From Saitoella complicata NRRL Y-17804 (Eukaryota > Ascomycota > Saitoellomycetes > Saitoellales > Saitoellaceae), in contig NW_017567022.1 in the NCBI RefSeq assembly GCF_001661265.1, forward strand, positions 111,543-175,542: a DNA stretch of 64,000 nt. Reading direction: 5' to 3'. The position numbers and the translations under genes were made by a program. Shown here piece by piece: positions 3,133 through 55,774 of the stretch (its first letter is position 1; every line of letters starts with the position of its first letter). Below the pieces are notes generated by a model, which did no database searches, was not told where the DNA came from, and saw only the letters and a program-made list of their open reading frames with translations.

Positions 3133-3160
3133 CTGCTGTGTGCAAAATCCTTGACGCGCA
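3133..3160 (+). repeat. Left terminal inverted repeat of element A
   Basis: Twenty-eight bases matching the complement of 5668-5695 with one mismatch (C for T at position 17). The tip is preceded by the target dinucleotide TA. Confidence 0.9.
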
Positions 3161-3251
3161 TTTTCGTACATGCGCGAGACCCCTGTAACGGTAACATAAA
3201 ACACCTCCAAACAGCTCGAAAAAGGGTCTAGGAAACTCAGTAAGGGTCGAA

Positions 3252-3750
3252 ATGCTTGGGAAGATATGTGCCGATGTCGACCGCGACAAGGTAATCAACC
3301 AATATGCTTCTGCGAAGGATGTCTACGAAATAGCGACCGACATTGAGAGGTCTCCTCGCACGGTTTACCGAATTGTGATTCGAGGAGACAGGGCTTACTG
3401 AGCGTAAGGGCAACTCAACCTGCGGGCGCAAATCGGCTGTTGACGAGTTTCTGGGCTCGGTAAGTAGACTATTACTGCTCATGGGTACCACCAAGGGCAT
3501 GACTAAATGACCGCAGCAAATCAAGTACTTGTACGACAAAAACCCTACCCTGTATCAAGACGACTGTGCTGAGTTCCTCAATGATCAATTCGCTACATCT
3601 CTATCGCGCTACCATGTCACCCGCTACCTGCAAAAGATTGGATATACCCGTAAGGTTTTGACCTTACGGGCAGCCCAGCGCAACCCTATCTTACGCGCAA
3701 ACCATGCCATTGAAATGGCTGACTATATATATACTGTGGTTATGCGCTGA
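3252..3750 (+). pseudogene. Degenerate Tc1/mariner transposase of element A
   Basis: The first 40 or so codons read as a transposase helix-turn-helix with the family-typical S-P-R-T-V-Y-R-I recognition helix. A frameshift near 3380 moves the continuation (ETGLTERKG, then CGRKS) to the next frame. A canonical intron (3460-3516, GTAAGT...GCAG, 57 nt) links it to a second segment with LTLRAAQRNP and RANHA, the linker before the catalytic domain. The frame stops at 3748-3750, before the first catalytic Asp, and nothing resembling the DDE core follows. The intron sits at the same place as in the transposase of element B, which confirms common descent. It cannot encode an active enzyme. Confidence 0.85.
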
Positions 3751-3987
3751 CCGGCATGGATTTGCGCCAATATGTTGATAACAACCGTGAAATGGCCGCT
3801 CGAGCGGCTGAGCGGGTGTAGCTATCATTCATTAGTCCTTCTCAGTATTTTCATGAATCAAAGGAACATTTCGTTCATTATTTACGTACTTGCCGTTCTC
3901 ACGGGTCCTTTCCCTAACAAAATGGCCGGGAACTGCCCCACCTACGTAGCATGCGAGTGTAGCTCACTAGATTACGCTCCTCTGAGA

Positions 3988-4073
3988 CAAGAATTATGCA
4001 TGCTAAGGCAGGGCATGATGTTTTGTCAAGGATTGTGCACGCTCAATACCTGCCTTAGCGTGCATAATTCTTG
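3988..4073. repeat. Hairpin and TIR-like motif cluster inside element A
   Basis: Arms 3988-4012 and 4049-4073 are inverted copies of 25 bases with one mismatch, separated by 36 bases. Three motifs resembling the element's own TIR core (TGCAWAATYCTTGAC) occur here: inverted in the left arm, inverted near 4025-4041, and direct near 4059-4075. It lies between the 3' ends of the two convergent genes. It could be a nested MITE, a relic of a related element's ends, or internal transposase-binding sites. Confidence 0.65.
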
Positions 4074-4157
4074 ACAACGTCGTTTCGTGCGCGAGTACAG
4101 GTTTGCAAAAGAATCAAGCATTGTGGATTGAAAAGCAGTACAGTACCACAGAGATAA

Positions 4158-5603
4158 CTATAAATCAAAGCTTTCGTCAAACTCCTGGCTTTCGTAAACC
4201 TCGAAGGGTGTCTCCTTGAGGCCTAGGGGACCCCTAGGCTTCGATTGCTGCTCCCGCTGGATACCTTTCCAAACCGGCCACCATTTGCGCATAATCCTCA
4301 CCCATCCATGCTTCACAGGCGGTAGGCCATTCGGATCGATGTTCTTGAGATCGTCTAGCACTACTCCATTGTCGATAATTGCATCTCGAACCGTCTGGCA
4401 ATCAAAGTCGATGTATTCCGGAACTTTGGTCTTGACATAGGCTAGAAACCCGTCCAAATCATCAGCAGCCGGCCCTTGAAGAGGGCTCGAACCCCTGAGT
4501 ATTTGCGGGTCAATGGTCGTGGTTGTTGGGGTTGGGGTCGGAGTAGGCTGACTCGAGGGAGGTAGCAGCAGTAGATCGAATCGAGGCGCAGTCACTGGTG
4601 TAAGTAGTTGAGGCATACCGAACGAAGAGTGCCTGCTTTCAGGTGTTTCCGATTGATCTGTCTCCTTGAATGGTATGAGCAACCCAGCGAAAAGGGGATC
4701 ATGGATGGGTGGTTCCTCAACGGTAACCCCATGTTCTTTCGCGACCAAGTACTTAGACCATAGATTGAGGAGATCATTGGTAATGTATCGATGTTGGTGA
4801 GAAAAAGGATGAACATAGCAGTACTGCTGGTGGTGCTTGGCGCATTTGTGCTTAGCCTGTAGGGTCTGAACAGCAAGGATCCTTTTGTAGTGTTGAGGAT
4901 CATTCGCAAGTTCATTCGAAATGCCCTGGAGAGCAGTGTTGGTAGCACTGTGCCTAGGTCGAGGGATGAGAGGCTTTCGGGCCCTGGACTGAGTCTGAGA
5001 GGGGTGCAACGGGGTTTGCTGGTCGAACTCGAATTTAGAAGCAGCCCTTGTAGGGTCGTAGTGTGTTTCGATTAGGATAAAAGCTGGCCATTCGACCTTG
5101 GGTGTGTTGCGCTCAGTGTGGACGGCATCAATGAAGCCTTCCCAGTCGTCCTCCGTTCGTAGTCTACACCATGCTGCATCCCGGCTCCTTCCACGGCAGA
5201 CTTTCCAGCTGATATTGGGCTTCAGGGAGTATTTGTTGACGCCTTCGACGACCATATGATCATGACGGAGCTCCTCGAGGGCGACATCGATCAAAAGCTG
5301 CTCTTGGTCGGCCCAAGACTTGACTGGATTGACCGTCCAGGGTGCTTGAGGATACCTGTGGTTCTTTTGCCTAGTGACGAGAACGAAGACCTGGAAGTCG
5401 TCGAATCTGCTGATAGTATCAACCGGTGCGTCTTCGTCTTCGAGTTCCTTGACTGTCTTAGGCCGTTTTTCCCTCCGGACTGTATTTGTAGGTGGTGGTG
5501 AGTCTGCATCTTCGAGGGGTCGGGAGGGCAGTTTGGGGGTACGAGTCGATGCCCTGCGCTTATACGAAGCCTTAGCAGCTCCTTTCAGCTTCCTAGGAGG
5601 CAT
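4158..5603 (-). CDS. Element A partner protein, 481 residues, unknown function
   Basis: The start is taken at 5603 (MPPRKLKGAAK), because the longer frame runs out through the TIR into flanking DNA. Seen in order: a basic Lys/Arg/Ser-rich N-terminus (about 1-60); an alpha/beta-looking region with RGRSRDAAWCRL; a Cys/His cluster of the form C-x2-H-x3-Y-C-Y followed by spaced His (about 255-290); a Pro/Thr/Ser linker with a PT repeat; and a C-terminal helical region of about 70 residues (FLAYVK...VLDDLKNI...WWPVWKG) resembling a SAM-type fold. The protein encoded in element B aligns along its whole length. It is convergent with the transposase and begins about 65 bases from the right TIR. The frame is fully open although the transposase is ruined. 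No known enzyme motif is seen; nucleic acid binding is only a guess from the basic N-terminus. Confidence 0.8.
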   Translation of the reverse strand: MPPRKLKGAAKASYKRRASTRTPKLPSRPLEDADSPPPTNTVRREKRPKTVKELEDEDAPVDTISRFDDFQVFVLVTRQKNHRYPQAPWTVNPVKSWADQEQLLIDVALEELRHDHMVVEGVNKYSLKPNISWKVCRGRSRDAAWCRLRTEDDWEGFIDAVHTERNTPKVEWPAFILIETHYDPTRAASKFEFDQQTPLHPSQTQSRARKPLIPRPRHSATNTALQGISNELANDPQHYKRILAVQTLQAKHKCAKHHQQYCYVHPFSHQHRYITNDLLNLWSKYLVAKEHGVTVEEPPIHDPLFAGLLIPFKETDQSETPESRHSSFGMPQLLTPVTAPRFDLLLLPPSSQPTPTPTPTTTTIDPQILRGSSPLQGPAADDLDGFLAYVKTKVPEYIDFDCQTVRDAIIDNGVVLDDLKNIDPNGLPPVKHGWVRIMRKWWPVWKGIQREQQSKPRGPLGLKETPFEVYESQEFDESFDL

Positions 5604-5667
5604 TTTCAAGGTTTGGCGGCGTGTTTGGTGGATTGGTCGCGTCCTGCACGAACATGCGGTAAAATGA

Positions 5668-5695
5668 TGCGCGTCAAGAATTTTGCACACAGCAG
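5668..5695 (-). repeat. Right terminal inverted repeat of element A
   Basis: Inverted copy of 3133-3160 with one mismatch, followed by the target TA at 5696-5697. Confidence 0.9.
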
Positions 5696-5742
5696 TATCT
5701 GCACCCCGCACTCATCTCCTGCCACGTATAACCAACCACACA

Positions 5743-8346
5743 ATGACAACCCTCACCGCAAAAATAAAACAGATCCTCCCAGACCCAACACTCCTCCTCC
5801 TCCAGAACCCCTCCTCCCCCTCTCAAACCCGTCAAATCGCAATCCACGGCATCACCATCCCCAGACTCCGCCGCGAAGGGGATGAAGATGGTGCATGGGA
5901 CGCGAGGGAGTATTTGAGGAAGATGGTGGTGGGGAAGGTCGTGAGGTTTAGGGTTGTGTATACCGCTGCAGGCAGGGAGTATGCGAGGGTTTGGGTTGAT
6001 GGGGGGGAGGATCTCGCTCTTCACCTTCTGCGAGCTGGATGGGCTAAACTCCGCTCCACTCCTTCCTGCGACGAAGACGACACAGCAGCCTACACCGAAG
6101 CCGAGTCATCCGCCCGCTCCGCCTCCCTCGGCCTCTGGGCCCCCACCTCCAACATCTACGCCTCCTACGACACACCCCCCAACCCCGCCTCCTTCCTCGC
6201 ACAATGGCAAAACAAACAAATCGACGCCGTAATCGAACAAGTCCGTGCCGGAGATCTCGTCCGCGCCCGTCTGATACTGTCACCCGCCCAGCACCAATAC
6301 CTCCCCCTCATCCTCGGCGGGGTGCGGTGTCCCACTTCCCCACGGACCGAGCCCACCACTGGTGCCGTCCTCGATGCGGGCGAGGAATTTGGGGATGCGG
6401 CACGAGCGTTCACCGAAGCGCGACTCCTCCAGCGCTCGGTCAAAGTACAGCTTTTGGGGACTACGTCGAGTGGGGGACAGTTCGTCGCGAACATCATCCA
6501 TCCCGCGGGTGATATCGGCGCTCTCATCCTCGCGTCCGGCTTGGGACGGGTGGTGGATTGGATGAGTGGTATGGTCGGTGTGGAGAGGATGGGTATGCTT
6601 CGTGCTACGGAGGCGAGGGGGAGGGGTGCGGGGGTTGGGGTGTGGAAGAACACCACCAACACACTGGGGAAGGAAAAGGGGTTCGAGGCGGTTGTTGTGA
6701 GGATTGTGTCAGCCGATACGATCCTCGTCGAAGCCCAGAACATGGAACGCAGAATCCGGCTCTCGTCGCTGCGTGCGCCCCGTGCCACCGACAGCGCACA
6801 AGCACCCTTCGTCACTCTCGCGCGGGAGTGGCTCCGTCGTCGACTGATCGGGAAAACCGTACGCGTCCAGATCGACTCCACCACCAAACCCTCTGCCGCT
6901 TCCAATGCCGACTCGATCGATGTCGCGACCGTCACCGTCGGCAACACGAATACGAATGTAGGGCTGGAGGGCGTCCAAAAAGGTTGGTTGTCCGTCCTGA
7001 GGCATAGAGCGGACGACACCCATCGTGCGCCTGGCTCCATCTACGACGCACTCATCGCGGCCGAAGCTGCGGCGCAGGATTCACATGTTGGCATGTGGTC
7101 ACCCAAACCACCGGGAGCAGTGGGGGCTGGGAGGGTGGTGGATGCGAGTGAGAGCGTGACAAGGGCGAAGGGGCATATCAATGCGCTCACCCGGGCGGGG
7201 CGGGTTGGGGGTGTGGTTGAGCATGTGTTTTCTGGCAGCAGGTTTAAAATCCTCCTCAAACATCAAGGAGAAACCAAGATTACGTTCGTCCTCCGTGACG
7301 TACGCTCCCCACGCTCGGACGAATCACACGGAAAGGAGGCATTGGAGTATGCGACCCGGAGGTTCCTGCAGCGCGATGTCGAGGTTGAGATCAATAACGT
7401 TGATCGTGGGGGGGCATTTATGGGAGCTATGTTCTTGGGGGGTCGGGATGTGGGAGTGGGGATGGTGGAGGGGGGGTTGGGGTGGGTTGGGGAGTATGTC
7501 GCTGGTCCTGGTGCTGGGGTGTTAAGGGAGGCGGAGGGGAGGGCGAAAGAAACCAAAAAGGGTGTGTGGAAGGACTATCAACCCGAAGCTGAGGCGGCTG
7601 TGGTAAGAGAGGGAGGGGAGAATGGGAGTGGGCGTGGGGGTGGGGAGAGGGAGTATGTGGATGTTGTCGTCACGGAGGTTGAGAGTCAGGGGAGGTTTTG
7701 GGTACAGCTCATTACGCCCAAAATCCAGGAACTCGAGATACTCATGCGGGATCTCCAAGTCGCCTCGTCCGCTGCTTCCCTGTCTGGTCCACCCCGCGTC
7801 GGGGATCAACTTCAGGCGAAATCGGCCCAGGATGGGATGTGGTACCGGGCTCGCGTCAGACGTGTCGATCGTGCTGCTGCAAAGGCGGAGGTGGTGTTTG
7901 TGGATTACGGCAACACCGAACACATACCATTCGCAAACCTCCGACTGGGCGCACCCTCCGGGTTGCCGCCACAAGCACAGGAGGCAACATTATCATTCAT
8001 CCGTCCCCCACCTGCCGGAAGCGAGTACGCCCTCGACGCACGCGCCTCCCTCGCCTCCCTCATCACAAACCGCCAACTCGTCGCATGCATCGATCGTAGC
8101 CCCGGCGGCTCCCCACTCGAACTCACCCTCTACGACCCCACGAATAGCGCGAGTGTTGATCCGAGTGAGAGTGTTAATGCGGAGATGGTGAGGGAGGGGA
8201 TGTGTCGTGTCGTGCCACAGAAGGAACGGGGGTGGGAGAAGGCGTTTGCGGGGGTGTTGACGGGGTTGGAGGAGAAGGAGGGGGAGGCGAGGAGGGGGAG
8301 GAGGGGGATTTGGGAGTATGGGGATGTGTTTGGGGATGATGAGTAG
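5743..8346 (+). CDS. Tudor-SN nuclease (SND1/p100-type), 867 residues
   Basis: The start MTTLTAKIKQ at 5743 is preferred over the upstream in-frame Met at 5683, which lies inside the transposon end. The protein shows four repeated staphylococcal-nuclease-like modules (each with a VxVEV/VRV strand and E...A...GxW endings such as SLGLW, VGVW, VGMW, KGVW) and a Tudor domain near the C-terminus (WYRARVRR...VDYGNTE), then the tail of a fifth SN module. Length is close to the roughly 910 residues of animal SND1. Members bind and cleave structured or inosine-containing RNA, act in RNA-induced silencing and splicing, and concentrate in stress granules. The gene has no intron. Its 5' side is occupied by element A, leaving 47 bases of native DNA before the ATG, so element sequence may drive or disturb its transcription. 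Confidence 0.9.
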   Translation: MTTLTAKIKQILPDPTLLLLQNPSSPSQTRQIAIHGITIPRLRREGDEDGAWDAREYLRKMVVGKVVRFRVVYTAAGREYARVWVDGGEDLALHLLRAGWAKLRSTPSCDEDDTAAYTEAESSARSASLGLWAPTSNIYASYDTPPNPASFLAQWQNKQIDAVIEQVRAGDLVRARLILSPAQHQYLPLILGGVRCPTSPRTEPTTGAVLDAGEEFGDAARAFTEARLLQRSVKVQLLGTTSSGGQFVANIIHPAGDIGALILASGLGRVVDWMSGMVGVERMGMLRATEARGRGAGVGVWKNTTNTLGKEKGFEAVVVRIVSADTILVEAQNMERRIRLSSLRAPRATDSAQAPFVTLAREWLRRRLIGKTVRVQIDSTTKPSAASNADSIDVATVTVGNTNTNVGLEGVQKGWLSVLRHRADDTHRAPGSIYDALIAAEAAAQDSHVGMWSPKPPGAVGAGRVVDASESVTRAKGHINALTRAGRVGGVVEHVFSGSRFKILLKHQGETKITFVLRDVRSPRSDESHGKEALEYATRRFLQRDVEVEINNVDRGGAFMGAMFLGGRDVGVGMVEGGLGWVGEYVAGPGAGVLREAEGRAKETKKGVWKDYQPEAEAAVVREGGENGSGRGGGEREYVDVVVTEVESQGRFWVQLITPKIQELEILMRDLQVASSAASLSGPPRVGDQLQAKSAQDGMWYRARVRRVDRAAAKAEVVFVDYGNTEHIPFANLRLGAPSGLPPQAQEATLSFIRPPPAGSEYALDARASLASLITNRQLVACIDRSPGGSPLELTLYDPTNSASVDPSESVNAEMVREGMCRVVPQKERGWEKAFAGVLTGLEEKEGEARRGRRGIWEYGDVFGDDE

Positions 8347-8431
8347 CTATAAGATATGAGCATCGAGTCTTAGATTGAACACGCATCACATCTTTTTGAT
8401 ATTTGCTCCCCGTCTATGCTACCGCACGTAC

Positions 8432-9964
8432 CTATTTATCAAGCACGACCAAAACCCCCCCAATCAAATGCAAACTCCCACTAACAAACACCTGTTTCCC
8501 CCCCTCAGCCTCCACCCCCCTCACAACCCCAACAGCCTCCTCAATCGTCCCACACACATGCACATCACCACCTGCTCCGAGCTTCTCCCAAGTATCGCGG
8601 AGTTCGTGTTGGACGGTGAGTGCTTTGACGTCGTCTGCGCTAGTGTTGATGGAGAGGAGGTCACTGTTGTAGCCGGACGCTTTGAAGGTGACGTTTGTAC
8701 AGAAGATGACTGTGTCGAAGATGGGGCCTGTGGGGATAGATGTAGATAGGGTGGTGCGGATTGTGGTGTAGAGGGTCGTGAGCAACTCCGTCGCGTTTCG
8801 TGTCTGTTGGTTAAACACGAGAACCCTCTTCCCCGGACGATCTTCTTGCAAGAATCGAGTGGCGATCCATACACCAGCTGCTTCGAGGGATTCAGTCGTG
8901 TGCGCACCGTCGAGACACCATTCAGTCTCGCCCTCGACTCGGACGTCACATCTCCCGGGCCAGTTGACGCGTTCGAGACCACGAACCATTTCTTCTGGTA
9001 GGTCTTTGGCGAGGTCGGGGATTGGGAGACCGACGTGTGGGAGATGCGAGGCGACGAGGTTCATTGCTAGGGATGCATTTGACTGTTGGAACACGGCCGG
9101 TAATCCCATCTTGATCTGGGGTACTGCAGGATGTACCGGCACGACCTCGAATGGTTGTGCTTCTCTCTCCTCCGCTCTCTTCCTCAATAACTCCAGCGCG
9201 CTCCGTGAGGATTGCTCCACACTAAATGCCGGAACACCTTTTTTGTAGATCCCGCCCTTATGCCACGCAATTTCCTCAATCGTACCTCCCAGAACCGCAA
9301 CATGGTCGATACCCAAACTCGTGACGCCCGTGACAGTGGGCCTTTGTACAATATTTGTCGAGTCGTATTCGCCGCCTACGCCGACTTCGTAGATCGCAGT
9401 ATCGCACCCTTCGGAGAGGAAGACATGCCAGGACATGAGTGTAAGGAAGCGGAAGTATACCGGTTTATTGGCCGGATCGAGGTTTTCGGCCAAGGCGGAG
9501 GATTCGAGACGATCCCAGATTTCGAAAAAGTATTTTGCGAAGAGAGGTTCTGGGATGGGTTCCCCGTCCAGCTGAATGCGTTCTCGGACGGCTTTGAGGT
9601 GTGGTGAGGTGAAGAGACCGATTTTGTGGGGTTTGGAGTATTTGGCTTGGTATTGTCGCAGAATAGAGTTGACAAATGCGCATGTTGAACCCTTCCCTTT
9701 CGTACCTGTGACGTGAATGATATTGAGTTTGTCAAAGTCAGAAGCGGTATACCCCACCCGACGAATCCACTCGTGCATCTCTGGCAGTGAGGTCGCGTTC
9801 ATTTTTCCTCCGGATTTTCGGAGTGCGTCGAGGACTGCTGCATTTGTTTGGAGTGTGTTTAGGGCGTTTACCGCGTCGTTGTAGGTTCGTGAAGATGTGG
9901 ACATGTTTCTTGAGCGCAGAAACAGATGGATCCGACGTGTGAAGGCGGCGGTGGATCTGAGCAT
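8432..9964 (-). CDS. Folylpolyglutamate synthase (MET7-type), 510 residues
   Basis: It adds glutamate residues to reduced folates in an ATP-dependent ligase reaction, keeping folates in cytosol and mitochondria for one-carbon metabolism. The ATP-binding loop VTGTKGKGS is at about 85-93, followed by the family's LGIDHVAVLG and HKGGI.K segments; the glutamate-ligase half carries CLDGAHT. The start MLRSTAAFTRRIH at 9964 gives an Arg-rich amphipathic presequence for mitochondrial import. A second ATG at 9904 (MSTSSRTYND) would give a cytosolic form, as known for this family. A longer frame reaches 10090 but looks non-coding. The gene is divergent from the PTEN gene, with about 160 bases between the start codons. 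Confidence 0.9.
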   Translation of the reverse strand: MLRSTAAFTRRIHLFLRSRNMSTSSRTYNDAVNALNTLQTNAAVLDALRKSGGKMNATSLPEMHEWIRRVGYTASDFDKLNIIHVTGTKGKGSTCAFVNSILRQYQAKYSKPHKIGLFTSPHLKAVRERIQLDGEPIPEPLFAKYFFEIWDRLESSALAENLDPANKPVYFRFLTLMSWHVFLSEGCDTAIYEVGVGGEYDSTNIVQRPTVTGVTSLGIDHVAVLGGTIEEIAWHKGGIYKKGVPAFSVEQSSRSALELLRKRAEEREAQPFEVVPVHPAVPQIKMGLPAVFQQSNASLAMNLVASHLPHVGLPIPDLAKDLPEEMVRGLERVNWPGRCDVRVEGETEWCLDGAHTTESLEAAGVWIATRFLQEDRPGKRVLVFNQQTRNATELLTTLYTTIRTTLSTSIPTGPIFDTVIFCTNVTFKASGYNSDLLSINTSADDVKALTVQHELRDTWEKLGAGGDVHVCGTIEEAVGVVRGVEAEGGKQVFVSGSLHLIGGVLVVLDK

Positions 9965-15628: not shown

Positions 15629-17230
15629 TCACTTAGGATCCTCATATCCCTCAGCAAACTGGCTTTCCTCACGAGGGCAATAGACCTTCAGGTGATTCAT
15701 CTGAAAACGACCTCTTATGCTCCCTTGAGGGGTCCCAAGTTCATGAAGCCAACAAGAGCGCCCATGATGCGCAACCTTCACAACCAACAATGGTCCCGTC
15801 CACCTAGGCTCAAGCTTCCTACCCCTCTGATTATCAAGATCAGTTCTCCTCCTTAGAACCAGATCCGCAACTCGAGGAGGGCGAGTCCGGCGCTTCAGTA
15901 GACCAATCTCAGCCTGGCGCTGTTGGTACTTGACAAGTTCCTCTGTCGAATGCACCCTCAGTTCATCCATTTGTGCTAGACGGACGGAATAGTTCCACAG
16001 CGCGGCCGGGGTGCTCTGTTCAGGACTCCCAACGAGTAACACAGCTGCTTCTCGGGTAGATCGGAATGGGAAAACCGGGCGGTTGGCATTGTAGCCGAAA
16101 AGAATCTGCGCTGGGGAGTAACCATGGACCCGAATGCATCGAGTGTTGATAGCCCAAATGATCTCAGGTAGGAACTCCTCCCAATCATCCCTTGTAACAC
16201 ATTTCCGTACCAAACCCCGCTCAATCAACTGGTTGACCCTCTCCACTAGCCCGACACTAGCAGCATCAGACACTGGTGCGGTGAAGTGCACAATACCATT
16301 GTTTCTGCAATAATCTGGGGTTGTACCCCCCGTAAAATGCGCACCATTGTCCGTATACAATGCCCTGGGCAAGCCGAACATCGGTTTCACTTGGGTTTCC
16401 ATGAAATCAACGACCACTTCTGAGCTTGCGGAAGGGACAGCCTTGGCGATCACGAATCTCGAGAAGTAGTCCACGAAGACAAGTAAATACTGGTATCCCG
16501 ATTTCCGACTGGCTGGCGTAACCTTTCCGACAAAATCAAGCCCGCACATGTCGAATGGTTGTAACTGCACAATGGGCTTAATGCTCACACTTGGGCGCAA
16601 TGGACCCACCTTCTGGCAAGCCTCACAAGTCCTGACATACTCCTGTGTATCTTTCACTCTAGTAGGCCACCACACGCGACCTACAATGTTCCGTAAGGTC
16701 TGTCCCACCGAAAAGTGTCCATGTAGGTCGTGCGCTTTAGTCAGGACGTCCCTGACCTGACCCTGCATTATGCACGGAACCCACTTCCCGTCTGACTCTC
16801 GATAGAACAAGTCAATGCCTTGTAACGAGTACCGATGAGCCATATAAATGATTCGGCGTCGGTAATTCTGGTCGCATTCTTCCTCAAAAGTGCGATTTCG
16901 TAAGTACCGCACCACATCGATGTACCAGGGATCACCGAGCACTGGGTTGTTTCGAGCTTCCACTGTGAATGCATCAATATCATCCACGGTAGGGTCTGGG
17001 ATAGACATTGCCCGGGTAGGTATCCTGGACAGTCCGTCGGCAACTGTCATTGTTTTCCCTGGTCGATGGTAATACCTCAGGTTGAACATACTGAGCAATA
17101 GCTCCCACCTTGCTACTCGGCCAGAACAGGACTCTTCCTTACCGAACAGGTTAAGAATAGCAGAATGGTCATTGTACACATGTACCAGTTTGCCTCCATA
17201 CACCCAACTCATCTTATTTGCATAATCCAC
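15629..17230 (-). pseudogene. Gypsy RNase H end and integrase
   Basis: The segment begins with the rest of RNase H (VHVYNDHSAI..., then RPGKTMTVADGLSR), continues with the integrase zinc region (H-x3-H...C-x2-C: HDLHGHF, CEAC), and the catalytic core with Asp in GLDFVG, Asp in YTDNGAHF and Glu in VGLVERVN. A C-terminal region with RWTGPLLVVK resembles the GPY/F module. It ends at 15629, about 130 bases before the polypurine tract. The frame is open throughout, but the TGA at 17234-17236 cuts it from the reverse transcriptase. That TGA stands where the family has a conserved Trp (VVWA). Confidence 0.85.
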
Positions 17231-17233
17231 GGC

Positions 17234-18685
17234 TCAAACCACGCCCAAAACCTCCTTTTCGGTAGTTGTATACCGAGTTTCGGCTCCCGTGAACTTAAAG
17301 CTCAGAAATGCCAGTACCTTTTCCCTACTCTTGTGGGTAGGCTTTGCCTCCTCGCCAGGGCTGAGTCCTTGTACCTGAAAGACGACTGCTCCACTCCCTG
17401 TTCCGCTTGAGTCGGAAGCTATATGAATATCCAGGGCCTGATCGGGTCCCGAAATATGTCCAATGCAAACATGTTCCTTCACCTTTTCGAATGCAGCCTG
17501 CTTTTCAGCATTCCAGGACCAAGGTTCATGGTCATTCCCCTTCCCCTCTCCACTTACAATCGACTTTTCCTTCGCCTTAGTCGGTTTTCCTGGCCTTTTC
17601 TCATTTCCGACACACAGGGCCCTCAATCCCGCAAAACCCGGGACTTTATGTCGATAATATTGCACACTTGCGAAGAACAAGGACACTTCAGCCTGTGTAG
17701 TAGGCATTGGCCAGTCCCGAAACTTATCCATCTTCTCTGGGATTGCTGTTAAGCCGTTTTTCGTGATCCGCCATGACAAAATGTCATTGTGATCCTCGAA
17801 AATTGTAGACTTATGCGGAGCCAACGACATTAGACTCCATATCACTCGAGTGAAGTACTTGGTTCGGGCAAACTCGAATGCAGTCTCGAAATCAGAAGCT
17901 GCATACCCATTATCGTCTTGGTATGGGTAAAAGTCCACATTCCCATGGTCTCCAATGATGGATTTGTGAGGGTCTGGGCCTGGGATCTCACCAAATGTGT
18001 AGTCAACAAGCTGCGCATAGAAGTGCGGACCGTCCGTCACTCCTTGAGGCATGCGCAGATGATAATATACCCCAAAAGGGGTGACAAATCCCAGCAGCGG
18101 CACTGTCTCTTCAGTAGCGCCAATGCTCCAGAATGCATTTGACCCGTCTCCTCCAAACCATACCATCATCCCTGGTTTAGCCAGACCCGTAATAACAGGC
18201 TCAACCCTAGGGGCTGGGTAGTGAGCCTTGATGGTCACAGCATTCAATGCCATGAACGGGTGGGTCATCCGAAAACTCCCATCCTTCTTTGGAACCAACT
18301 TGACACCAGCAATGAATCTCCCTCGTTGCTTAAACAGCTCAGGGGAGACATTCCTAGAGTGGGTAATGAACCCTGCCTCTTCCATCAACGGTAGGGTCTT
18401 GCGGAACCACTCTTGCTGTTCAACACTCCAGTTTCGCACTTTGATCTTTGGTGGGCGCGCTCCTGGTTCCAATACAATGTGAAACTGCAGTAAGTCGGTT
18501 TCTTTTGTACAGCGAATGTTCCGGGCCCAGGCGTCTTGGTATGTGAACAGCAAGCGCTTGACTCTTTCCTCTCTTTCTGGCGTATTTACCAGTGCACCCA
18601 TTTTGAACTGCATGCTTTCGCACCAAGCATCAATCACTCCCATACTGACCTGACTTAGGTCCCGTACTTCTGGTCTCCTCTTCAC
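17234..18685 (-). pseudogene. Gypsy reverse transcriptase and start of RNase H
   Basis: Reverse transcriptase motifs appear in order: FIAGVKLVPKKDGSFRM, LRMPQGVTDGP and the catalytic YQDD box, then the RNase H start (LDIHIASDSSGTGSGAV, followed by E-K-E-V-L-G-V-V). The frame is continuous with both neighbours but bounded by TGA at 18713-18715 upstream and TGA at 17234-17236 downstream. The first codon listed is GTG, so this piece has no initiation codon of its own and depends on being part of the polyprotein. Confidence 0.87.
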
Positions 18686-18712
18686 AGGATAATGCTGAAT
18701 GCCAATCCGATG

Positions 18713-20179
18713 TCAAATCCGACCAGTAGAGACCTCTCTCTCCACCACTCCATCGCTGGTCCCAGCCAGCATCTCATATCCTTTGTTTCTCGAGGTTTTA
18801 TCCAGTTGAACCTCACTAGTCCTCCCCTTCTCAATCCTTTCACTCCCATCCTCAGCACCACTCAATGCGCTCGTAACACCTTCCACCACAAGCGCAGCCC
18901 GCAACTTCATAGCGACCAAGGGACTAATGGCCGCCGAAGGAAAATCCTTAGGGTTAGGGTTATCCTTCGGATTCCCATCCGGCTCATCATCCGTCTCGCT
19001 TTTGGAGCTTCCAGCTTCCACAGTGATTGAGGATATATCCTCATCATCGAACCCCCTCATGCGGCGAACATCCTTGGTCAGGGCTACCTCAACAATGAAG
19101 CAGTCGGTATCACTTTCTTCTTCCAAGTCATAGTCATCGGCGCTATCCTCTTCATCTCCAGAATAGTCATCGTTTGACTCTTCGTTGTCGACCCTATAGC
19201 TGCCGCGGGCAATCCCCTTTGTCACAGCCTCCTTCGGCACATTGACCATTCGATTGGGACATACATCTGGGATGTATGTAGGCACTATACCCCCAACCGG
19301 AGCAACAACATGCCCAATATTGTCCTTGCCGCGGATGATATAGTAGTCATCCTCAAAGGAAGCCCAAGCTTTACACTGGATCAACCAGCTCTTGCTGAGT
19401 AAGGCTCGATACGACTTCCTGGTATGAAGGATCCAGAACCGGACCCTTTGTGTAACAGAAGACACAGTTACCATTGCCTCAACATACCCTTTGAGTGCAA
19501 TCCATCTTCCATCCGCCACACGAATAGACATGGTCTCATCCTCAATAAAGGTAAGTCCGAGAATGTCGATTTCCGACTGATGCATCAAGTTCACCATCGA
19601 ACCGCCATCAACAACTAGCTCAATCGCTGTTCCATTGACTTTGGATGCCGCCATGAACGTTTTCGGTACCAATTCCTGCACCTCGACGATTTTTGCCCCT
19701 GGGAAACAGGTTCCATCGACAGCATAGGCATTAGCCACATACATCCCATCAGCGCCAACCTTCTTCTTCCTTACAACCTTGGGCCTAGACGACTTCAGGG
19801 CATCCAACAGGATAGCCCTACCCCGCGGACTTTCGTCAAGGTACTGCATATATGACATATGCGGACCCAAAGTTGGATCCCTCATTGCCCCGAGAAGATC
19901 AAACGGTGTCACTCCAGCCATACCCTTGATCGGGTATCGGATTGCCGCCTTCTTCTTGCTTGTCGCTTTCGGCTGCCTAAGGGGTTCCACCGGTTCGTCG
20001 CCTTCATTCATAAGGTCTTCTATATTGACCCTTTTCCTAGGGTTCGCTTCAGCAGCGAAGACCTCAGCGCTACGACGCGCCTCAATCAAGTAAGACTCCC
20101 GGATCTCCCGGACAGCCTCGTCCAGCTCTTCCGGGGACGCCTCATCAGCTGTTCCCACGGGGCCTGTTCCCACGGTCAT
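18713..20179 (-). pseudogene. Gypsy protease region and linker
   Basis: A retropepsin-like segment carries the active-site Asp in ELVVDGGSMVNLM, with DGG in place of the usual D[ST]G, a variant I recall in fungal gypsy elements. It is preceded by a basic linker (KKKAAIRYPIKG) and followed by an acidic spacer of about 150 residues before the reverse transcriptase. It starts in the same frame as gag, 18 bases after gag's TGA, and ends at a further in-frame TGA. The short tract TTAGGGTTAGGGTTA on the plus strand at 18948-18962 is part of this coding region. Confidence 0.78.
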
Positions 20180-20194
20180 GTCCTCATCATGGCC

Positions 20195-21697
20195 TCAACC
20201 ATGTAGGACTCTTTGTTGAGGTTGATTCCCATTGGATGGGCTTCCCCATTGGCGTCGAAACCTCCTGCTTTCAACCCTAAGAGCCGCTTTTTCCTGAACA
20301 TCAAGGGGTGGGTGTGGGCAGTCCGGTTTAATATGCCCGACTTCGTAGCAGTTGTAGCAGTTAACAGGCTTCGTATCCCTCATGGGTTGGCCTTGGATGC
20401 GAGCACCTTGAGGTTGGAATCTGACGGATTGACCTCTGGTTGCATTCCCATTGCCAACGTTGTTTGCCCAGCCGCTCCCTGGGTTATGAGGGACCTGCCG
20501 AGCACGAAGGTTCTCATAGTTCATCCTTAGTTCCTGCATTTCTTTCTGCAGGCCACGGATGATGTCATTGGAATCAGACTTCGAGGATCCCACGCTACTG
20601 CCAGAGGCCGAGTGTGTCTCGGACAAAGCAGGCATATCCGTCACTCGGGGAGCCCTGTGTTGGCCACTGTGCGGGATGGCTTTCGCGGCTGCTGCCTGCC
20701 AGAGCTGTGACATCTGGTTCGAAGCCTTCAAGACATCCACCATAGCGCGCGCTCCACTCGCCTTCTGAGCACATTCAATAACGATTTCCAAAGAGAGACT
20801 AGGGCTATTGAGGTCAAGGTCCCTGTTAGAAAGGTTCCATGACGTCATTTCCCGAATCCTCTCATCAGCCAGCCCACCGATGAACTGAACCGCCAGCAAG
20901 TTCTCGAGACTGGATGGGGTACGGCGAGCAAGGTCCCGGGTCTTCTGGAGATACTCAGCCAGTGTAAGGTCTCCTTGGCACCAACTGTTCAACTGACTGA
21001 CAGCTTTACGCTGAGCCTCATACTGAGGCTCCCCAGTAGAGTGAAACCTCGAGATAAATGACTTGATCAACTCCTCATAATCCTCAAGTAACTCATCCGT
21101 TTGGTCATTCAACTATAGGGCGGCAGGAGAGTTAGGGACCAAGTTTGACTTGAAAGCTTCGAGCTTCCAATCCGCAAGATATTCTTCGTCATTGATGCTG
21201 AAACGAAGTCCCTTTTCAGCCACATTGAGCGAGCGCATATAATCCTTGGGCTTTTCCCCCGGATAACCGCTAAACTTCCTGACCGTGGTGACCATGTGGG
21301 GATTCATGTGACCTGACATGGTCGGCAGAGGAGGGGTGTTCGTACTGATTGTCGACGAGCCTGAGTTGTTGCTGTTGTTGTCTGACGACACTGTTGCTTT
21401 CAAAGGTGTCGACGTAATGGTTAACTGAGTAAATGCTGTTGATAGGTCTTCGACCAAAGCAGCGGGACTAGGTTGGAAAGGGGTTTCAGGGGTTGAAAAG
21501 GGGTCAGGGGTAACTTCTGACTCGACACAGTTGTAGGGTAAATGCTCTAGGAGAAGAGCAGCTGATAATTCGTCCGCCAGTGTACGGAACCGACGACCTC
21601 GACGATGTCTTCCTATGCTGAAGACTTGACCACAACGCAAACAGGGGTGGGGTAAGAGGCAAACTGCTCTCCCGAACCGCACAGGTGACTCAGACAC
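20195..21697 (-). pseudogene. Gypsy gag (capsid and zinc-knuckle nucleocapsid)
   Basis: The capsid-like retrotransposon gag region includes YEELIKSFISRF, QLNSWCQGDLTLAEYLQKTR and GGLADERIREMTSW. A CCHC zinc knuckle C-x2-C-x4-H-x4-C (CYNCYEVGHIKPDC) sits near the C-terminus. An in-frame TAG at 21113-21115 divides it. The first ATG in frame is at 21319; the frame upstream to 21697 is open and Ser/Thr-rich but begins with GTG, so the true start may be spliced or downstream. Gag ends in TGA, with protease continuing in the same frame. Confidence 0.83.
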
Positions 21698-21728
21698 TCA
21701 ATAAATGCTCTTGTTACGACTGACCGAG

Positions 21729-21745: not shown

Positions 21746-21749
21746 AATC

Positions 21750-43592: not shown

Positions 43593-45020
<1,428 letters not shown>

Positions 45021-50062: not shown

Positions 50063-50414
50063 GTACTGTCATCCATGGGGCGTCTTTGATGACGGTTGTA
50101 TTGGATAGGTTGGTGTGGAGCGATACAAAGCAGGAAGGTGAGTGAGGTGTGGCATACGTGTGTGTTTTTCATATTTCGGATTCAGTTTAAAGTATGGTAT
50201 CGTGTCGTTCGATGGAAGGCAAGGGTCAGGTATTCTGGAGTTTCTATATTGCTATCATAGCGTACTCGCGCTTTATTCGGTTCGGGACTTGGGCGTTTTC
50301 TAAATCATGTTGTTTGCTCAACCCAGACCCATTTTGTCGATGTGGTCGACTGATAGACGACTCTCCTTTTGCGCTCAAGATTGTGAAAGCACTTTTCCAG
50401 AGTATTCATCTTGA
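50063..50414. other. Convergent 3' region
   Basis: Lies between the MFS gene and the Zn2Cys6 regulator, whose 3' ends face each other. No gene is seen. Confidence 0.5.
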
Positions 50415-52277
50415 TCACGAACGTCCGTGCTTTTGCACCAACGCCTTCCACCTCTCTCTCACAACATCAACTCCCTTCTCCGCAACCGGGCTCGTCCCCC
50501 GTATACTCTCGAGGAAGTCGACAATCCAGTTCAACTTGGCGCTCTTGGTGCTCATGAACCCTAACTCATCATCCCTGGCTGCGGCGAATGTCAAGACTGC
50601 GAGCGCAGCATTGAAGGTGTAATACGACACCGTCCACGATACCTGTGCGTGAGCTCCAAATTTCGGGACCAAGGCCCGTATCAACTCCACCGTATCGTAA
50701 ATCGCGGTGAGATACTCCTTCTCATGCCAGGTGTGTTCGAAATCGGAAGGGTCAGGACGGGGGAGAAATGGAGCGTGCAGTGAGATTTGAAGGGAACACC
50801 GCAGTAATGCAAGGACGGCTGTCTGCATCGCCAACCTCCTGTCGGACTTTTCCGCAATGTATTCCGGATCAAGAACCCACGTAGTGTTGATGGCTTCTTT
50901 TATCTTGAACTCCTCCGGGAGCGCCCAGGAAAAGCGTTTGAGTGAGTCGTGTAGCTGTCGTGCCTTGGCTTCGTCTGTGGGAGAACAGGCCCGGATTTCT
51001 CGCATCAACTTACCGAGCCGCATCAGCGCGACATCGAAAGCGTCGTCTCTCCCATGCTTTGTCGTGAGATCCTTGTCCATATTGAGAGCATCCAGGGCCG
51101 GGATGGGCGTGAAGTCCGCGTCGAGGACGGAGGACAGGAACGAATCTTGGTAGACAAGTAGACGAATTACGCGTCTCATCTCCTCCGTGTCCCCGGTCTC
51201 TCCTTCAGCAGTAGCACTCCCATCACCCCTCCGCTTGCCTTGGCCGGGCTTCCTATGGGCCAACCCCAATCCACCTTCAACCCTCCGAGCCAGCCGCAAC
51301 ACAGATCCCATGAGCGCTTCACCCTCCTGTACCCTGTTTTCGTGTAAGAGATATGAGATCGTGAGTGCGAGCGCGGTCATAACATTCAAGGAGGGAGTCG
51401 GGAGGGATAGAAAAGAAGATGCACGGAGTGACTGCCAAGAGGCTGAAGCGTAGATCGCTGCAGTCAATCGCGGTTGTTGGGGTTTCTCGATTTTGGGTGC
51501 GGGGGAGAATAGTGAGGCGAGAGAGAAGATAGAGAAGGCGACTGCCAACCACCCCGAATTCACGCCGGCCTTTTCTGCCTCGCCTAATACCTCGAACCTT
51601 TTCCATTCATCCTCGAACCGGGGTAGATCCACCACATGGTAGAGTGGATCGATCTCCATTTTGTATACTTCTAGGAGATCTCGCACTTCTGCGGACGACG
51701 GAAGAATTCGGATCAGGTCGCTGATTTGCGTACCGACGAGGTAGCCGTTCCATAATGCGGGAAATGGGAACCCTTTTGGGTCGTGGAGGAAGGATGCGGC
51801 GAATGATGGATTCACGGCGGTAGGGGGCAGGGGCCGTTGTACGTTTGTCGGTTGTGGCCGAGGAGAGGGTGGGCGGGTTAAGGTCGGTGGGTGGGTGGTG
51901 TGATCGTTCGTGTTCCCAGGCGCAATACCATCCGCCGCAAGTTGATTTTCCATGAACCTTTCCAATCTCTTCAATCTTTCCTCTACCGTCAGGCTTCCAC
52001 TAGCTTCCATGCTCCCCTCCACAACCCTATTACATGTCCCATTTCCTACAAGCCCACTCACATCCTCGACCTCGTATTCACAAACACTCGGTAACCCCCT
52101 CTTCACGCACTGATCACACGCTGGTCTGGCTCGATCGCATTTTGTTTTTCGGGCGTGGCAGGGGAGACAGACATTTGTCGGACGAGATCGGTGCCGTTTT
52201 GTAGAGGGTGCTGGAGAGGTTTCGGAGCCGGTACCAGAACGACTGCGTTTGCCGCTGGTATTCAGGGAGGACAGCAT
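50415..52277 (-). CDS. Zn2Cys6 fungal transcription factor, 620 residues
   Basis: The binuclear zinc cluster has Cys at 37, 40, 47, 54, 57 and 66 (C-x2-C-x6-C-x6-C-x2-C-x8-C), flanked by basic residues (KRHRSRPTNV). A linker and a short coiled stretch follow (SLTVEERLKRLERFMENQL, about 95-113). The middle homology region of fungal-specific regulators spans about 170-520 (RILPSSAEVRDLLEVYKMEIDPLYHVV, then helical repeats). It should bind CGG-type half-sites as a dimer. Targets are unknown; the neighbouring MFS gene is a candidate because regulator-transporter pairs are common, but the two are convergent. Confidence 0.92.
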   Translation of the reverse strand: MLSSLNTSGKRSRSGTGSETSPAPSTKRHRSRPTNVCLPCHARKTKCDRARPACDQCVKRGLPSVCEYEVEDVSGLVGNGTCNRVVEGSMEASGSLTVEERLKRLERFMENQLAADGIAPGNTNDHTTHPPTLTRPPSPRPQPTNVQRPLPPTAVNPSFAASFLHDPKGFPFPALWNGYLVGTQISDLIRILPSSAEVRDLLEVYKMEIDPLYHVVDLPRFEDEWKRFEVLGEAEKAGVNSGWLAVAFSIFSLASLFSPAPKIEKPQQPRLTAAIYASASWQSLRASSFLSLPTPSLNVMTALALTISYLLHENRVQEGEALMGSVLRLARRVEGGLGLAHRKPGQGKRRGDGSATAEGETGDTEEMRRVIRLLVYQDSFLSSVLDADFTPIPALDALNMDKDLTTKHGRDDAFDVALMRLGKLMREIRACSPTDEAKARQLHDSLKRFSWALPEEFKIKEAINTTWVLDPEYIAEKSDRRLAMQTAVLALLRCSLQISLHAPFLPRPDPSDFEHTWHEKEYLTAIYDTVELIRALVPKFGAHAQVSWTVSYYTFNAALAVLTFAAARDDELGFMSTKSAKLNWIVDFLESIRGTSPVAEKGVDVVRERWKALVQKHGRS

Positions 52278-52752
52278 ACTATTGATCTATGCTTGTGAAC
52301 CCTGATCCGAATGTGAGAACTGTCTAAACGGGTCCGCAAATACCGCTCTCGGAAGATGACTTGGGGGGATAGCGCAACGTGCGATCACTGCCTCTCGGTT
52401 TTAGGGCCACACATCCAATGACAGGTTGGTGGATCGATATATCAATGTTGGTGGTGGGTAGAAAGGATAGATATTGAGGACATTTCAACAATTTCGACGG
52501 TGACGTTACTTGGGTTTGATGCAAAAGACTGCATCTCGGCAATTTTGACCAAGCGAGCAAGTACCGAAAGTCCCGAGCGTGCGCACAGCTCGTATGTATC
52601 TCATTTTCGGTATGGCAATCCCGTAGATCGAATGGGTGACACGTAGAGTACCAGTATTACATACGTGCTCTTGAAACCCAGGGTTCTGCAGTGGCAAGAG
52701 CAAATCGCGATCGCGCAGTGGCAGGCCAGGATCAGCATCCAGCGGTGATGAT
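52278..52752. other. Promoter of the Zn2Cys6 gene, up to element B
   Basis: No coding signal. The native sequence ends at the TA target site 52753-52754. Confidence 0.5.
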
Positions 52753-52754
52753 TA

Positions 52755-52803
52755 CAGCCAAACGCAAAAGTCATGCGAATCACGTGTAGCACGCGTACAC
52801 CAC
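52755..52803 (+). repeat. Left terminal inverted repeat of element B
   Basis: Forty-nine bases starting CAGCCAAACGCAAAAG, matching the complement of 55726-55774 with one mismatch. Preceded by TA at 52753-52754. Its first 21 bases share 12-13 positions with the TIR of element A, including GCAAAA at positions 10-15. Confidence 0.93.
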
Positions 52804-52869
52804 ACCACCGACAGACCGTAAAACAAATCACGTCGTATCTTGCCCAAATCGAGTCGAAAACGACTGCTG

Positions 52870-54235
52870 ATGGATGCTATCGAACCATCGCAGCGTAGGG
52901 CTTCATCCCGTGTTGCGAAAGCATGTGTCGACACGTCGTCGAAACGGATGTTCCATCGACAGCGCCACCTAGACTCCAGAACCAAAAAAAACCTTCAACA
53001 ACCCGCGACGAACCAGAACCGCTTCCAATTCCATCAGATGACGACGAAGAGTTCCAGTTGCAGCCATTCGCCATCAAATTTGCCACCACTAGGACTGGGA
53101 GTAAGCCCTCGATGGAAGGGCAGGTCACGATTCTACCGTTATGGGATTATGACTACATCCACGCCATGCTCATGAAAAAGGCAGCCGAAGATCTCTGTGA
53201 CGATCCGAGCTGCCCTGACGACATATCCCCCCAGATTTCTCCATGACCATGGGTTACCGGATCATTCGGGGTAGGGAAAAATCTGCGGTGACGAGACTGC
53301 GCAGCGCCGCCGACTTGGAGGACTTGAAGGATCAAGTGAAGGATCTACAGGAGGTCTACAGTGGTAAGAACAAGAACTGGAGTGTTTCCATCAGTCTTCA
53401 AGCGAAATACGTCCCTCCCATTTCGAGTGGATCTTCAGACGGTGAACTCGATAATCCCGCCCGCATCCATGGAGGACGTAAGAGGGCCAAAAAGCGCGGA
53501 AACAACCCCTCCAAGCGTATGCTGTCCGACGTGAGGCAACACGCTGAGAACAATGCCTTCAAGCGAACTGTTTTGTCTAATGTCACCAGGCTTCAGGAAA
53601 AATGGGTATGTGAAGAACACGAAGGGTACTGCTGGAAGGTCCCGAGCTCAGGGAAGCATATGCACCTTGCATCACATCATCTGAGCCGCTGGGGGCAGTT
53701 CATGGCCCTTCCTCACAGTTCTGTTGATGAGTTGGCCCCACCGCATACACCGACGTTCGAAAAATTTCACAGAGGCACCCTACACGCCGCAGCAAGCTCC
53801 GAGAGCTACAGTACACCAACTCCTACCTCGAGAATTACGCCTGCGATCTCCTCGACTCCCGATGTGCCGGCTAATACTCCGATTCCCACGGTCTTCACTG
53901 CGCCGGTACCACCCTCAAGCCCATTACGGATGGAGGACGCCGAGGATGTAGCAGGCTTTATGAGTTTTGTTGCGAAAAACAACCCTAGCTACACCGGGTT
54001 CAATGCTGCGCAGACTGAACAAGCTTTTCGCGAAAATGGATTGGCACTCGAGGATTTAAAGAGGGTGCCTCCCGGTTTGACCATCCCAGGTATCCGACCA
54101 GGAGATACGCTTGCTGCGCAGCGCTGCTTGCCACTTTGGAAGGCGCCGGCTCGAGGCCCAACTGCAGTCCATGGATTCAGACGTATGTCCTCCCAGCACT
54201 CCCCCGAAGAGTACCATGCTGACGAGCTTGCTTAG
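52870..54235 (+). CDS. Element B partner protein, about 429 residues, unknown function
   Basis: Three frames are joined if two 38-nt introns are removed: 52925-52962 and 53197-53234. Exons 52870-52924, 52963-53196 and 53235-54235 then close in frame. These introns are shorter than any other in the window, so two frameshifts are the alternative. The product aligns with the element A protein: a basic N-terminus; GYRIIRGREKSAVTRLR against WKVCRGRSRDAAWCRLR; the C-x2-H...Y-C cluster (VCEEHEGYCWKV against KCAKHHQQYCYVH) with downstream His; a Pro/Thr/Ser linker; and the C-terminal helices (GFMSFVAKNNP, ALEDLKRVP, CLPLWKAP against GFLAYVKTKVP, VLDDLKNID, WWPVWKG). No catalytic motif is seen. Confidence 0.68.
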
Positions 54236-54541
54236 TAATGATGTTCTAAGCTTTTCCGCAGAGCTGTGCAACTTTGCCCGAGTCACCCATTGGCGTGAGA
54301 GCATTTTTGCATATATATAAGCTTGGTCAGCTTAGTTCGTGAAGAGGATGAATGTCGGGCAGGAGAGAGGGGTGTCAGGATCTTTCTTCTTTTATGTTTT
54401 TCGAACTGTACCACTCCCATTGTATATAGTCTATGTTTCGTCAAGTTGTAGGCCTCTTACTCTCCGCCGGTATGTCCCAGAGTTCAGGAACCGAGGATTA
54501 AGGGACATTTCATGATGTAAATGATGTATATTATGCTACAG
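54236..54541. other. Spacer between the convergent genes of element B
   Basis: About 300 bases between the partner gene stop and the transposase stop. No hairpin comparable to that in element A was noticed. Confidence 0.5.
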
Positions 54542-55655
54542 CTACCAAGTTATGCCTTCCAGGGTGAGATCTACAGCGCTTTGCGCCTCTGCATTGCGAT
54601 ATAACTGCAGTTCTTCCTTCGACAACCCATATCCGCGCTTTTTCATTAAGCTGATGCATTTGTCGGGAAATGCATTGATAGCAAGGTCAATTCCCTCCGC
54701 CAAGAACACATTGCAATGATCCACGGCGCAAGGATGGTCACGGTTGCGCTTCGTCCAAGCCTTGAGCATCGAAAATGTGATTTCTATGGGATTCAGGTCA
54801 GGTGAATAGTGTGGTAGGTACTCGATTCGACACCCATGACCAATAATCAACTCCTTTACCCTTGAATCATGATGTGTAACACAGTTATCCATGACAACCA
54901 CACTCCTAGACTCCGGGTACGGCTTGCTAACCCTAACCCTAAGTGCACCAAGAGATCATCCGCTATGAAATCGACAAATCGATCAGCATTGAAACTGCCT
55001 TGGTAGCATGAATAACACAGCATACCATTCATCGAGAATGCGGGAAGCAGAGACCAGCGCAAGCCACGGGCTAGCCGTCGATCTTCGCAAGCTGGAGTAC
55101 CCTCGGGCGAATAGCCGAACTTTCGATAGGTGCAGCGGTTGTCAATACTCGATTCGTCCAAGAAAACAAGCATATCCATCGAATAGTTCGCGAACTGTAA
55201 GGCGTGGTTTGCTCGTAGGGTGGCATTTCTCTGAGCAGCCCGTACTTTAAGCTTTTTCCGGGTCCACTTGATTCGCTTGAGGTACCGCTGAATGTCCCAC
55301 GGATTGATGTCGGTACAGAGCGTTTCGTTGACGAAATCGGCTGCTTCATCGTGGTATAGACTCGGGGTGTTCATGAATAGCAACTGGATATGCTGGGAGA
55401 GATGTAAGTGTATGCTGTTTTTGCGATGGAGAGTAAACCTTCCTGCCCAACATGATCATCAATCTTTCGAGGTCTTCCTAAGCCCTAATGATTGGGCAAT
55501 TCATGGGTACCCTCGTCGTCATAGCGTCGAAGAATGCGGTAAATGGTGCTTCGGTGCTTACCGGTCCATTCTGCTACCTCCTTAGTAGCTTGTCCACGGA
55601 GGCTGTTCTGCACCACAAGCGCTCGAACCTCATTGTGAACGCGCTTACCGACCAT
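54542..55655 (-). pseudogene. Tc1/mariner transposase of element B, broken by a stop and a frameshift
   Basis: Start ATG at 55655 gives MVGKRVHNEVRALVV and a helix-turn-helix (TGKHRSTIYRIL), then an in-frame TAG at 55485-55487 just before GLGRPRKID. A 59-nt intron (55393-55451) leads to the middle part with RAAQRN and RANHA, then the first catalytic Asp in VFLDESSIDN. After FIADDLLVHL the frame shifts within a telomere-like tract (54927-54942) and resumes at KPYPESRSVVVMDNC. Second Asp is in VMDNC and Glu in SPDLNPIE; 34 residues separate them, the DD34E spacing of Tc1. It is inactive as it stands unless the lesions are suppressed. Confidence 0.9.
54927..54942 (-). repeat. Telomere-like tract at the transposase frameshift
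   Basis: On the transposase strand this is two TTAGGG units plus TTAG, placed exactly where the reading frame changes. Confidence 0.7.
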
Positions 55656-55725
55656 TCCCAGGTCCTGAAACGTCCTGGTTGAGGAGTAATTGTATTTTTG
55701 CTGGGTTCACGTCTGCTGCTTGGTG

Positions 55726-55774
55726 GTGGTGTACGCGCGCTACACGTGATTCGCATGACTTTTGCGTTTGGCTG
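55726..55774 (-). repeat. Right terminal inverted repeat of element B
   Basis: Inverted copy of 52755-52803 with one mismatch, followed by TA at 55775-55776. Confidence 0.93.

Follow-up and report, generated by a model that had tools for sequence, protein, structure and literature searches.

The textbook case of a self-sufficient transposon with a single gene is the Tc1/mariner element, on which tools such as Sleeping Beauty are built. PIF/Harbinger elements encode a Myb-like protein of low conservation that carries the transposase into the nucleus and attaches to the terminal inverted repeats (TIRs), and the trees of the two proteins are congruent (PMC9179366). Tc1/mariner elements with extra genes are already known from ciliates (PMC4724952, PMC7325037). 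Here, we show that two elements, A and B, in a stretch of 64,000 nucleotides from Saitoella complicata NRRL Y-17804 (Taphrinomycotina; C31:111543-175542, below called the window; genome of 14.12 Mb on 34 contigs) belong to a partner-bearing Tc1/mariner group, in which a second, fast-evolving gene recurs and has descended together with the transposase. The two-gene unit has a common layout, co-descent and coding constraint, one domain of the partner is predicted by modelling to be of the PB1 fold class, and the partner gene probably aids the movement of the element or its evasion of control.

With the fungal DDE_3 members of Tc1/mariner (IS630) the Saitoella units share TA ends, TIRs and a DDE_3 transposase with a D/D/E triad; what sets them apart is a second gene, which in seven families of this genome belongs stably to the unit. 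The likeness to PIF/Harbinger lies in the two-gene unit, the congruent trees and a partner far less conserved than the transposase (PMC9179366). However, the Saitoella transposase is assigned to DDE_3, with no Harbinger transposase family in the Pfam results, the ends are TA, and the partner combines a predicted PB1 fold with a C..C..H motif and has no Pfam-detectable Myb domain. The ciliate elements TBE and Tec are likewise Tc1/mariner elements with extra open reading frames (ORFs), one of them reversed, but they differ in their three ORFs, the zinc-finger/kinase protein of TBE, the recombinase of Tec and their hosts (PMC4724952, PMC7325037). Our literature search found no two-gene Tc1/mariner element in fungi, no PB1-type partner and no paper on Saitoella Tc1/mariner elements, which does not prove their absence in print. 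Neither Pfam nor NCBIfam matches partner A or its close relatives, and gene predictions label them hypothetical proteins, so that second genes of this kind could go unnoticed in other fungi.

Convergent gene pairs across the genome

The whole genome was searched with three partner and two transposase queries (E<=0.01); matches were chained and rows nested in or beside a kept row were dropped, which left 53 partner and 58 transposase loci. An opposite-strand transposase lies at most 3 kb downstream at 40 of the 53 partner loci, whereas random placement of the transposases (20 contigs, 500 trials) yielded 0.48 convergent pairs on average and never more than 3. At four partner loci a transposase lies no more than 3 kb away in a different arrangement. 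Where a unit keeps 60 or more residues of both genes, the two are on opposite strands, in 35 of 35 cases. The first-pass annotation of the window, which had proposed the unit from elements A and B, would have been in trouble if partner homologues were mostly host genes outside TIRs; by these counts they are not. The partner as an ordinary host gene is not supported, and the genome-wide search found no intact stand-alone copy.

The extracted DNA comprises 45 stretches with 37 units in which both genes are present. A TA-anchored TIR pair with at least 20 of 26 bases matching was called in 24 of the 37, and shuffled sequence (three shuffles per unit) reached at most 18; the TA at both outer edges of these 24 was required by the search. 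Elements A and B match at 25/26 and 26/26 bases (flank shuffles, three each, at most 17), in agreement with the TA-edged TIRs first described for them. Of the calls, 23 are clean, since the right arm of C4_261 belongs to a neighbouring 610-bp element. For some units without a call the far end lies outside the extracted DNA, as with the right arm of C1:854 at 858331-858386.

Co-descent of the two genes is evident from distances and from trees. Partner and transposase distances are correlated over 547 pairs (Mantel rho 0.83; 0 of 999 permutations as high). Trees of 31 units from families A, B, B2, C, D and E (four of 35 units were dropped for short alignments, and F is absent) have 12 of 28 splits in common, against 0.17 expected and a maximum of 2 in 500 random comparisons. 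Seven of the splits with support of at least 0.9 (10 in the partner tree, 11 in the transposase tree) are common to both, and the single supported conflict falls within the recent family C. Within this genome the trees therefore do not show independent insertion of the partner into each element, the other outcome that would have told against the first proposal. A short putative GT..AG intron of the transposase can be spliced in frame by script, among other candidates, in A, C, F and a C2 fragment, and was read by eye at the same place in B, B2, D and E; the partner of A, C or F shows no sign of an intron. The common intron position claimed earlier is thus supported by the sequence of copies in several families, without transcripts.

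Eighteen transposase loci were initially scored as lacking a partner. At six of them (C1:365, C7:316, C13:79, C13:246, C14:209 and C15:338) a family F partner sits on the other strand, at most 0.6 kb away, overlapping at C15 and in rearranged pieces at C7, and the idea of a transposase-only family that could serve as a one-gene outgroup was rejected. One such element, at C13:246091-249068, has TIRs matching at 25/26 bases and an opposite-strand open frame of 435 residues from its first ATG; the F partner frames at C13 and C14 are open. Direct genome searches with partners A, B and C did not list the F partner, but its kinship with the partner family emerges from a profile comparison (E=1.6e-7, probability 93.9), in which the match starts at the C..C..H motif, covers the linker and extends into the tail. 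Read from this comparison and its arrangement, F is a seventh two-gene family with the same convergent layout and a very divergent partner.

Nonsynonymous (dN) and synonymous (dS) substitution was analysed in 23 pairs. Between C9 and four A-subfamily copies (dS 0.21-0.27), dN/dS is 0.40, 0.43, 0.46 and 0.45 for the partner and 0.55, 0.31, 0.42 and 0.36 for the transposase, with more change at third codon positions than at the other two. Most change is at third positions also in ten between-family pairs, where dS is near or beyond saturation. Other close copies give partner values of 0.38 (C9/C4) and 0.37-0.38 (family C). The partner is constrained between A subfamilies, and recent copies drift. 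Between families partner dN exceeds transposase dN in 10 of 10 pairs, and within families the picture is mixed; between A and B, identity is 27% over 340 columns for the partner (BLASTP) and 46-49% for the transposase.

Partner protein, transposase and internal sites

Partner A consists of a basic N-terminus, a predicted PB1-fold domain, a C..C..H motif and a SAM-like tail. The PB1 fold, for residues 64-184, is suggested by an AlphaFold2 model of P0001, which is 95% identical to partner A, together with a fold match; the likeness to known PB1 proteins is one of fold, and the domains of A and of C found 0 Pfam families at E<=10. PB1 domains carry either an acidic OPCA loop (type I) or a conserved lysine (type II). 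In partners A and C, by eye, a basic RGR block stands where the first acidic PB1 cluster would be expected, in place of the type I acidic loop, and D153 and E155 are invariant in nine aligned rows and not in the D and F rows. Helices are predicted at residues 381-391, 400-409, 414-419 and 430-451. The first-pass annotation had suggested modelling the partner in search of a DNA-binding or SAM fold: a PB1 fold emerged, while for SAM the C-terminal helices fit by eye, with no search match. The fold-search rows spanned the PB1 part only, and the tail had no Pfam match and a best PDB sequence match at E 0.065, not a SAM protein.

Relatives of the partner were looked for widely. Partner A and its close relatives have no match in Pfam or NCBIfam, PDB sequence searches returned nothing significant (none, then best E values of 0.065, 0.28 and 0.15), and BFVD gave nothing at E<=0.001. 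A single-sequence search with partner A returned only proteins of S. complicata (8/8), although it needs common exact words and does not imply absence elsewhere. A profile search likewise gave 14 of 14 matches in Saitoella among the best 7994 candidates scored by common words, with the F partner not a query. Scans of IMG/VR with P0001 and P0135 gave no partner match. As background, some basidiomycete hypothetical proteins carry a similar C..H..C..H..W..PP..F motif.

The transposase is readily classified. P0015 matches DDE_3 at E=1.2e-32, with D150, D235 and E271 and 35 residues between the last two (DD35E), and the triad is present in copies such as those at C4, C7:243 and C9, whose frames are open, and absent from the A copy in the window. 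Helix-turn-helix families match below the curated cut-off throughout (HTH_33 in P0015, HTH_29 and HTH_23 in P0017). Homologues number 3725 at E<=0.001; among the 120 matches listed, the named ones from outside Saitoella belong to what we take to be Agaricomycetes and to Rhizophagus. In IMG/VR, 57 loci match the transposase.

A further feature lies between the genes. In 13 of the 24 TIR-called elements, a sample without family F, we counted 16-mers resembling the element's own TIR core (at most 4 mismatches): 12 of the 13 have at least one between the stop codons, the genes hold 0 or 1, and shuffled intergenic DNA has a mean of 0-0.22. In family A, C4:406, C9, C7:243 and C4:212 have four sites oriented - - + + and spaced by about 39, 35 and 39 bp (65 for the middle gap in C7); the A copy in the window has three sites and C12 has one. 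Internal sites mostly read GCATAA, compared with GCAAAA in the TIR (A, D, E). They may be extra binding sites for the transposase or the partner.

How the partner might act

What does the second protein do? Our best reading, by analogy, is that the element would encode a self-assembling accessory protein and use it as PIF/Harbinger uses its Myb-like protein, to which the partner is unrelated. The partner would enter the nucleus by its basic N-terminus and multimerise through the PB1 domain, perhaps also through the SAM-like tail. Partner and transposase would assemble on the TIRs and, in most families, on the TIR-like sites between the genes, and the assembly would help to pair the element ends and to excise the element; the partner's rapid change would then come from its fitting to each family's TIRs and transposase. 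We put at roughly 0.5 the probability that A and B are decayed members of a Tc1/mariner (DDE_3, DD35E) clade whose TA-edged TIRs enclose a transposase with one intron and a convergent partner, apparently without introns, that works in this manner. Tentatively, with chances a shade under even, the whole clade may be a two-protein system in which a PB1/SAM-type, polymer-forming partner co-assembles with the transposase on the TIRs and the central array and is required for transposition (or for escape from silencing). If so, a Harbinger-like solution would have evolved independently a second time, in a superfamily held to need the transposase only. A second protein kept in seven families, in a fixed layout and under constraint, offers a testable case of superfamily members that need a partner or are governed by one, and families that differ in TIR, transposase and partner permit swap tests of which part recognises which.

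Several observations weigh against the accessory-protein reading. Classical Tc1/mariner elements transpose by their transposase alone. Thirteen of the 53 partner loci have no nearby transposase; they span 183-1137 bp and look like fragments, one (C1:1038889) adjoins a run of N, another (C1:403516, open frame of 1241) probably does, and at C16:15376 a transposase lies 3.25 kb off. Twelve transposase loci are still without a partner, among them C1:361, which adjoins a run of N, and C16:114662, whose over-long open frame suggests one. The search for TA-anchored pairs called no TIR in B2 units, element B has no internal site, and the matches in family C are at the 4-mismatch limit. The PB1 model was built from nine sequences and has a mean predicted local distance difference test (pLDDT) score of 59.5, with 63-92 per ten-residue block in the domain, and the Foldseek match to PB1 reaches only E=0.019. 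No recognised DNA-binding domain was found: full-length partners A and B match no Pfam family at E<=1, their domains none at E<=10, and the F partner matches only CoiA_N (E=0.014, below the cut-off). Partner dN/dS, moreover, is 0.84 between the window A copy and C9, 0.62 for C9/C7, 0.69 for two D copies, 0.45 and 0.59 for B pairs and 0.52 for B2.

VANDAL elements are plant elements of the Mutator type. Their VANC protein is an element-encoded, fast-changing extra protein, and its targets are arrayed non-coding motifs (PMC5735166). An anti-silencing factor of this kind, which would bind repeated sites of the element and counter host DNA methylation or heterochromatin, is unlikely here. It is still the main rival, given a fast-changing partner and a host for which homologues of DIM-2 and RID are listed and no repeat-induced point mutation (RIP) is detectable (PMC7882544). 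The same paper, in its discussion, also describes Taphrinomycotina as being without the full gene set. The partner outpaces the transposase between families, and repeated non-coding sites are arrayed in family A; both would fit such a factor. Family B, however, has no array, and sites that resemble the TIR core suggest the transposase more than a target of silencing. C>T and G>A changes exceed their reverse in 11 of 12 comparisons of A copies, at most by 40 to 21; as the excess is mostly slight and transversions are common, RIP-like mutation is not evident.

The convergent genes, with TIR-like sites between their 3' ends, would also suit a self-limiting regulator that attaches to these sites or to the transposase and holds down transposition or the expression of the transposase, and the partner frame is open where the transposase is deleted (window A) and in F at C13 and C14. 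We consider this quite improbable: the transposase frames are open too in several copies, and repressors of DNA elements are often truncated transposases, not a second gene kept across families. Action on the host, through chromatin or PB1 signalling, would make the partner a cargo that benefits element or host and has no part in transposition itself. PB1 domains are usual in signalling scaffolds, and a DNA transposon lineage is reported to have captured one in plant MUG7 and MUG8 (PMC8616336), but co-diversification with the transposase in six tree families, the same layout in F and the lack of any intact stand-alone copy in our search make this very doubtful. Finally, that many copies are broken and that the window has only two speaks for chance capture or an annotation artefact, with similar open frames carried by two elements through coincidence. 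Genome-wide pairing, the TIRs, tree congruence, coding constraint and the layout of family F leave such chance barely credible.

The window copies and related elements

The coordinates of both elements are collected in Table 1. As first described, the Tc1-type transposase of each starts a little way inside one TIR and converges with a second gene that starts near the other end, the elements are oppositely oriented, and the partners are homologous (BLASTP E=1e-24), with the RGR block, the C/H cluster and the LxDLK and PxWK motifs. Two of the earlier statements hold in part. The TIRs of A and B do differ, and they are not unrelated: both have, by eye, a core like GCAAAAnTCnTG. The layout as transposase-plus-partner units stands as well, but neither window copy is a complete two-gene element, since A has lost its transposase core and both the transposase and the partner frames of B are broken.

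Table 1. Features of elements A and B (positions in the window)
Feature	Positions	Strand	Basis or context
Element A (family A), TA-edged, 2567 bp	3131..5697		TIR pair
Left TIR of A, transposase end, 31 nt, 97% complementary	3131..3161	+	
Transposase remnant of A (residues 1-44, 45-141, 315-346 of intact copy)	3252..3818	+	tblastn
Putative 57-nt GT..AG transposase intron, position common to other families	3460..3516	+	sequence only
Internal TIR-core-like 16-mer, site 1, 3 mismatches	3986..4001	-	between the two stop codons
Internal TIR-core-like 16-mer, site 2, 1 mismatch	4025..4040	-	central array of A
Internal TIR-core-like 16-mer, site 3, 1 mismatch	4060..4075	+	central array of A
Partner gene A, 481 residues from first ATG, no apparent intron	4158..5603	-	open frame
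Right TIR of A, partner end	5667..5697	-	TIR pair
Element B (family B), TA-edged, 3024 bp	52753..55776		TIR pair
Left TIR of B, partner end, 51 nt, 98% complementary	52753..52803	+	
Partner gene B, 338-residue open frame	53219..54235	+	homology to partner A
Transposase B, two frames, break near 54931-54937; D, D, E residues present	54599..55443	-	tblastn
Right TIR of B, transposase end	55726..55776	-	TIR pair

In element A the missing catalytic middle corresponds to residues 142-314 of an intact copy (tblastn), and the intron in Table 1 is one of three candidate splices for this copy. Its 398-bp partner end occurs at 12 places in the genome, the window included, at 82-100% identity, besides shorter or weaker matches. 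The element ends 46 bases upstream (interval 5697-5743) of the first ATG of an 892-residue open frame (5668-8346, plus strand) that by eye encodes a staphylococcal-nuclease/Tudor-like protein, and the insertion may affect the promoter of this frame. In element B, the N-terminal third of the partner lies by eye in another frame, from about 52871 and upstream of 53219, and in the relative at C1:855 text matching this third is in a single frame; transposase B matches Pfam DDE_3 at E=4e-7.

Runs of N occur in 10 of the 45 extracted stretches (contigs C1, C2, C3, C9, C17, C20 and C25), seven times separating the partner match from the transposase match, and produce falsely long open frames of about 550-1400 residues; recent copies have probably been collapsed in the assembly. 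The A-type TIR end (at most 3 mismatches) occurs 92 times in the genome, as opposed to 0 for the reversed pattern. These ends form 34 head-out pairs, 20 of which are 600-615 bp long. Three of the 600-615-bp elements that were compared are about 90-95% alike and have little beyond the ends in common with the two-gene element; they look like miniature inverted-repeat transposable elements (MITEs), which may be mobilised in trans. At C7:367889-367890 and C2:690665-690666 a 610-bp MITE starts in the TA that ends a family C element on the partner side; these two MITEs are 91% alike and so do not stem from a recent duplication.

Two loci of about 940 bp, L068 (C31:21199-22142) and L066 (C16:102662-103596), have another TIR, TATAGTCGAGTTCTAAAGTCATGC, and hold only a B-type partner piece (within residues 6-123 of the window B frame), with no transposase match; they are probably deletion derivatives of a further B-like family. 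Elsewhere in the window, five adjoining open frames on the minus strand (15629-21697) contain, by eye, Gag-like zinc-knuckle, protease, reverse transcriptase and integrase-like text, and appear to be a Ty3/Gypsy-like retrotransposon broken by stops.

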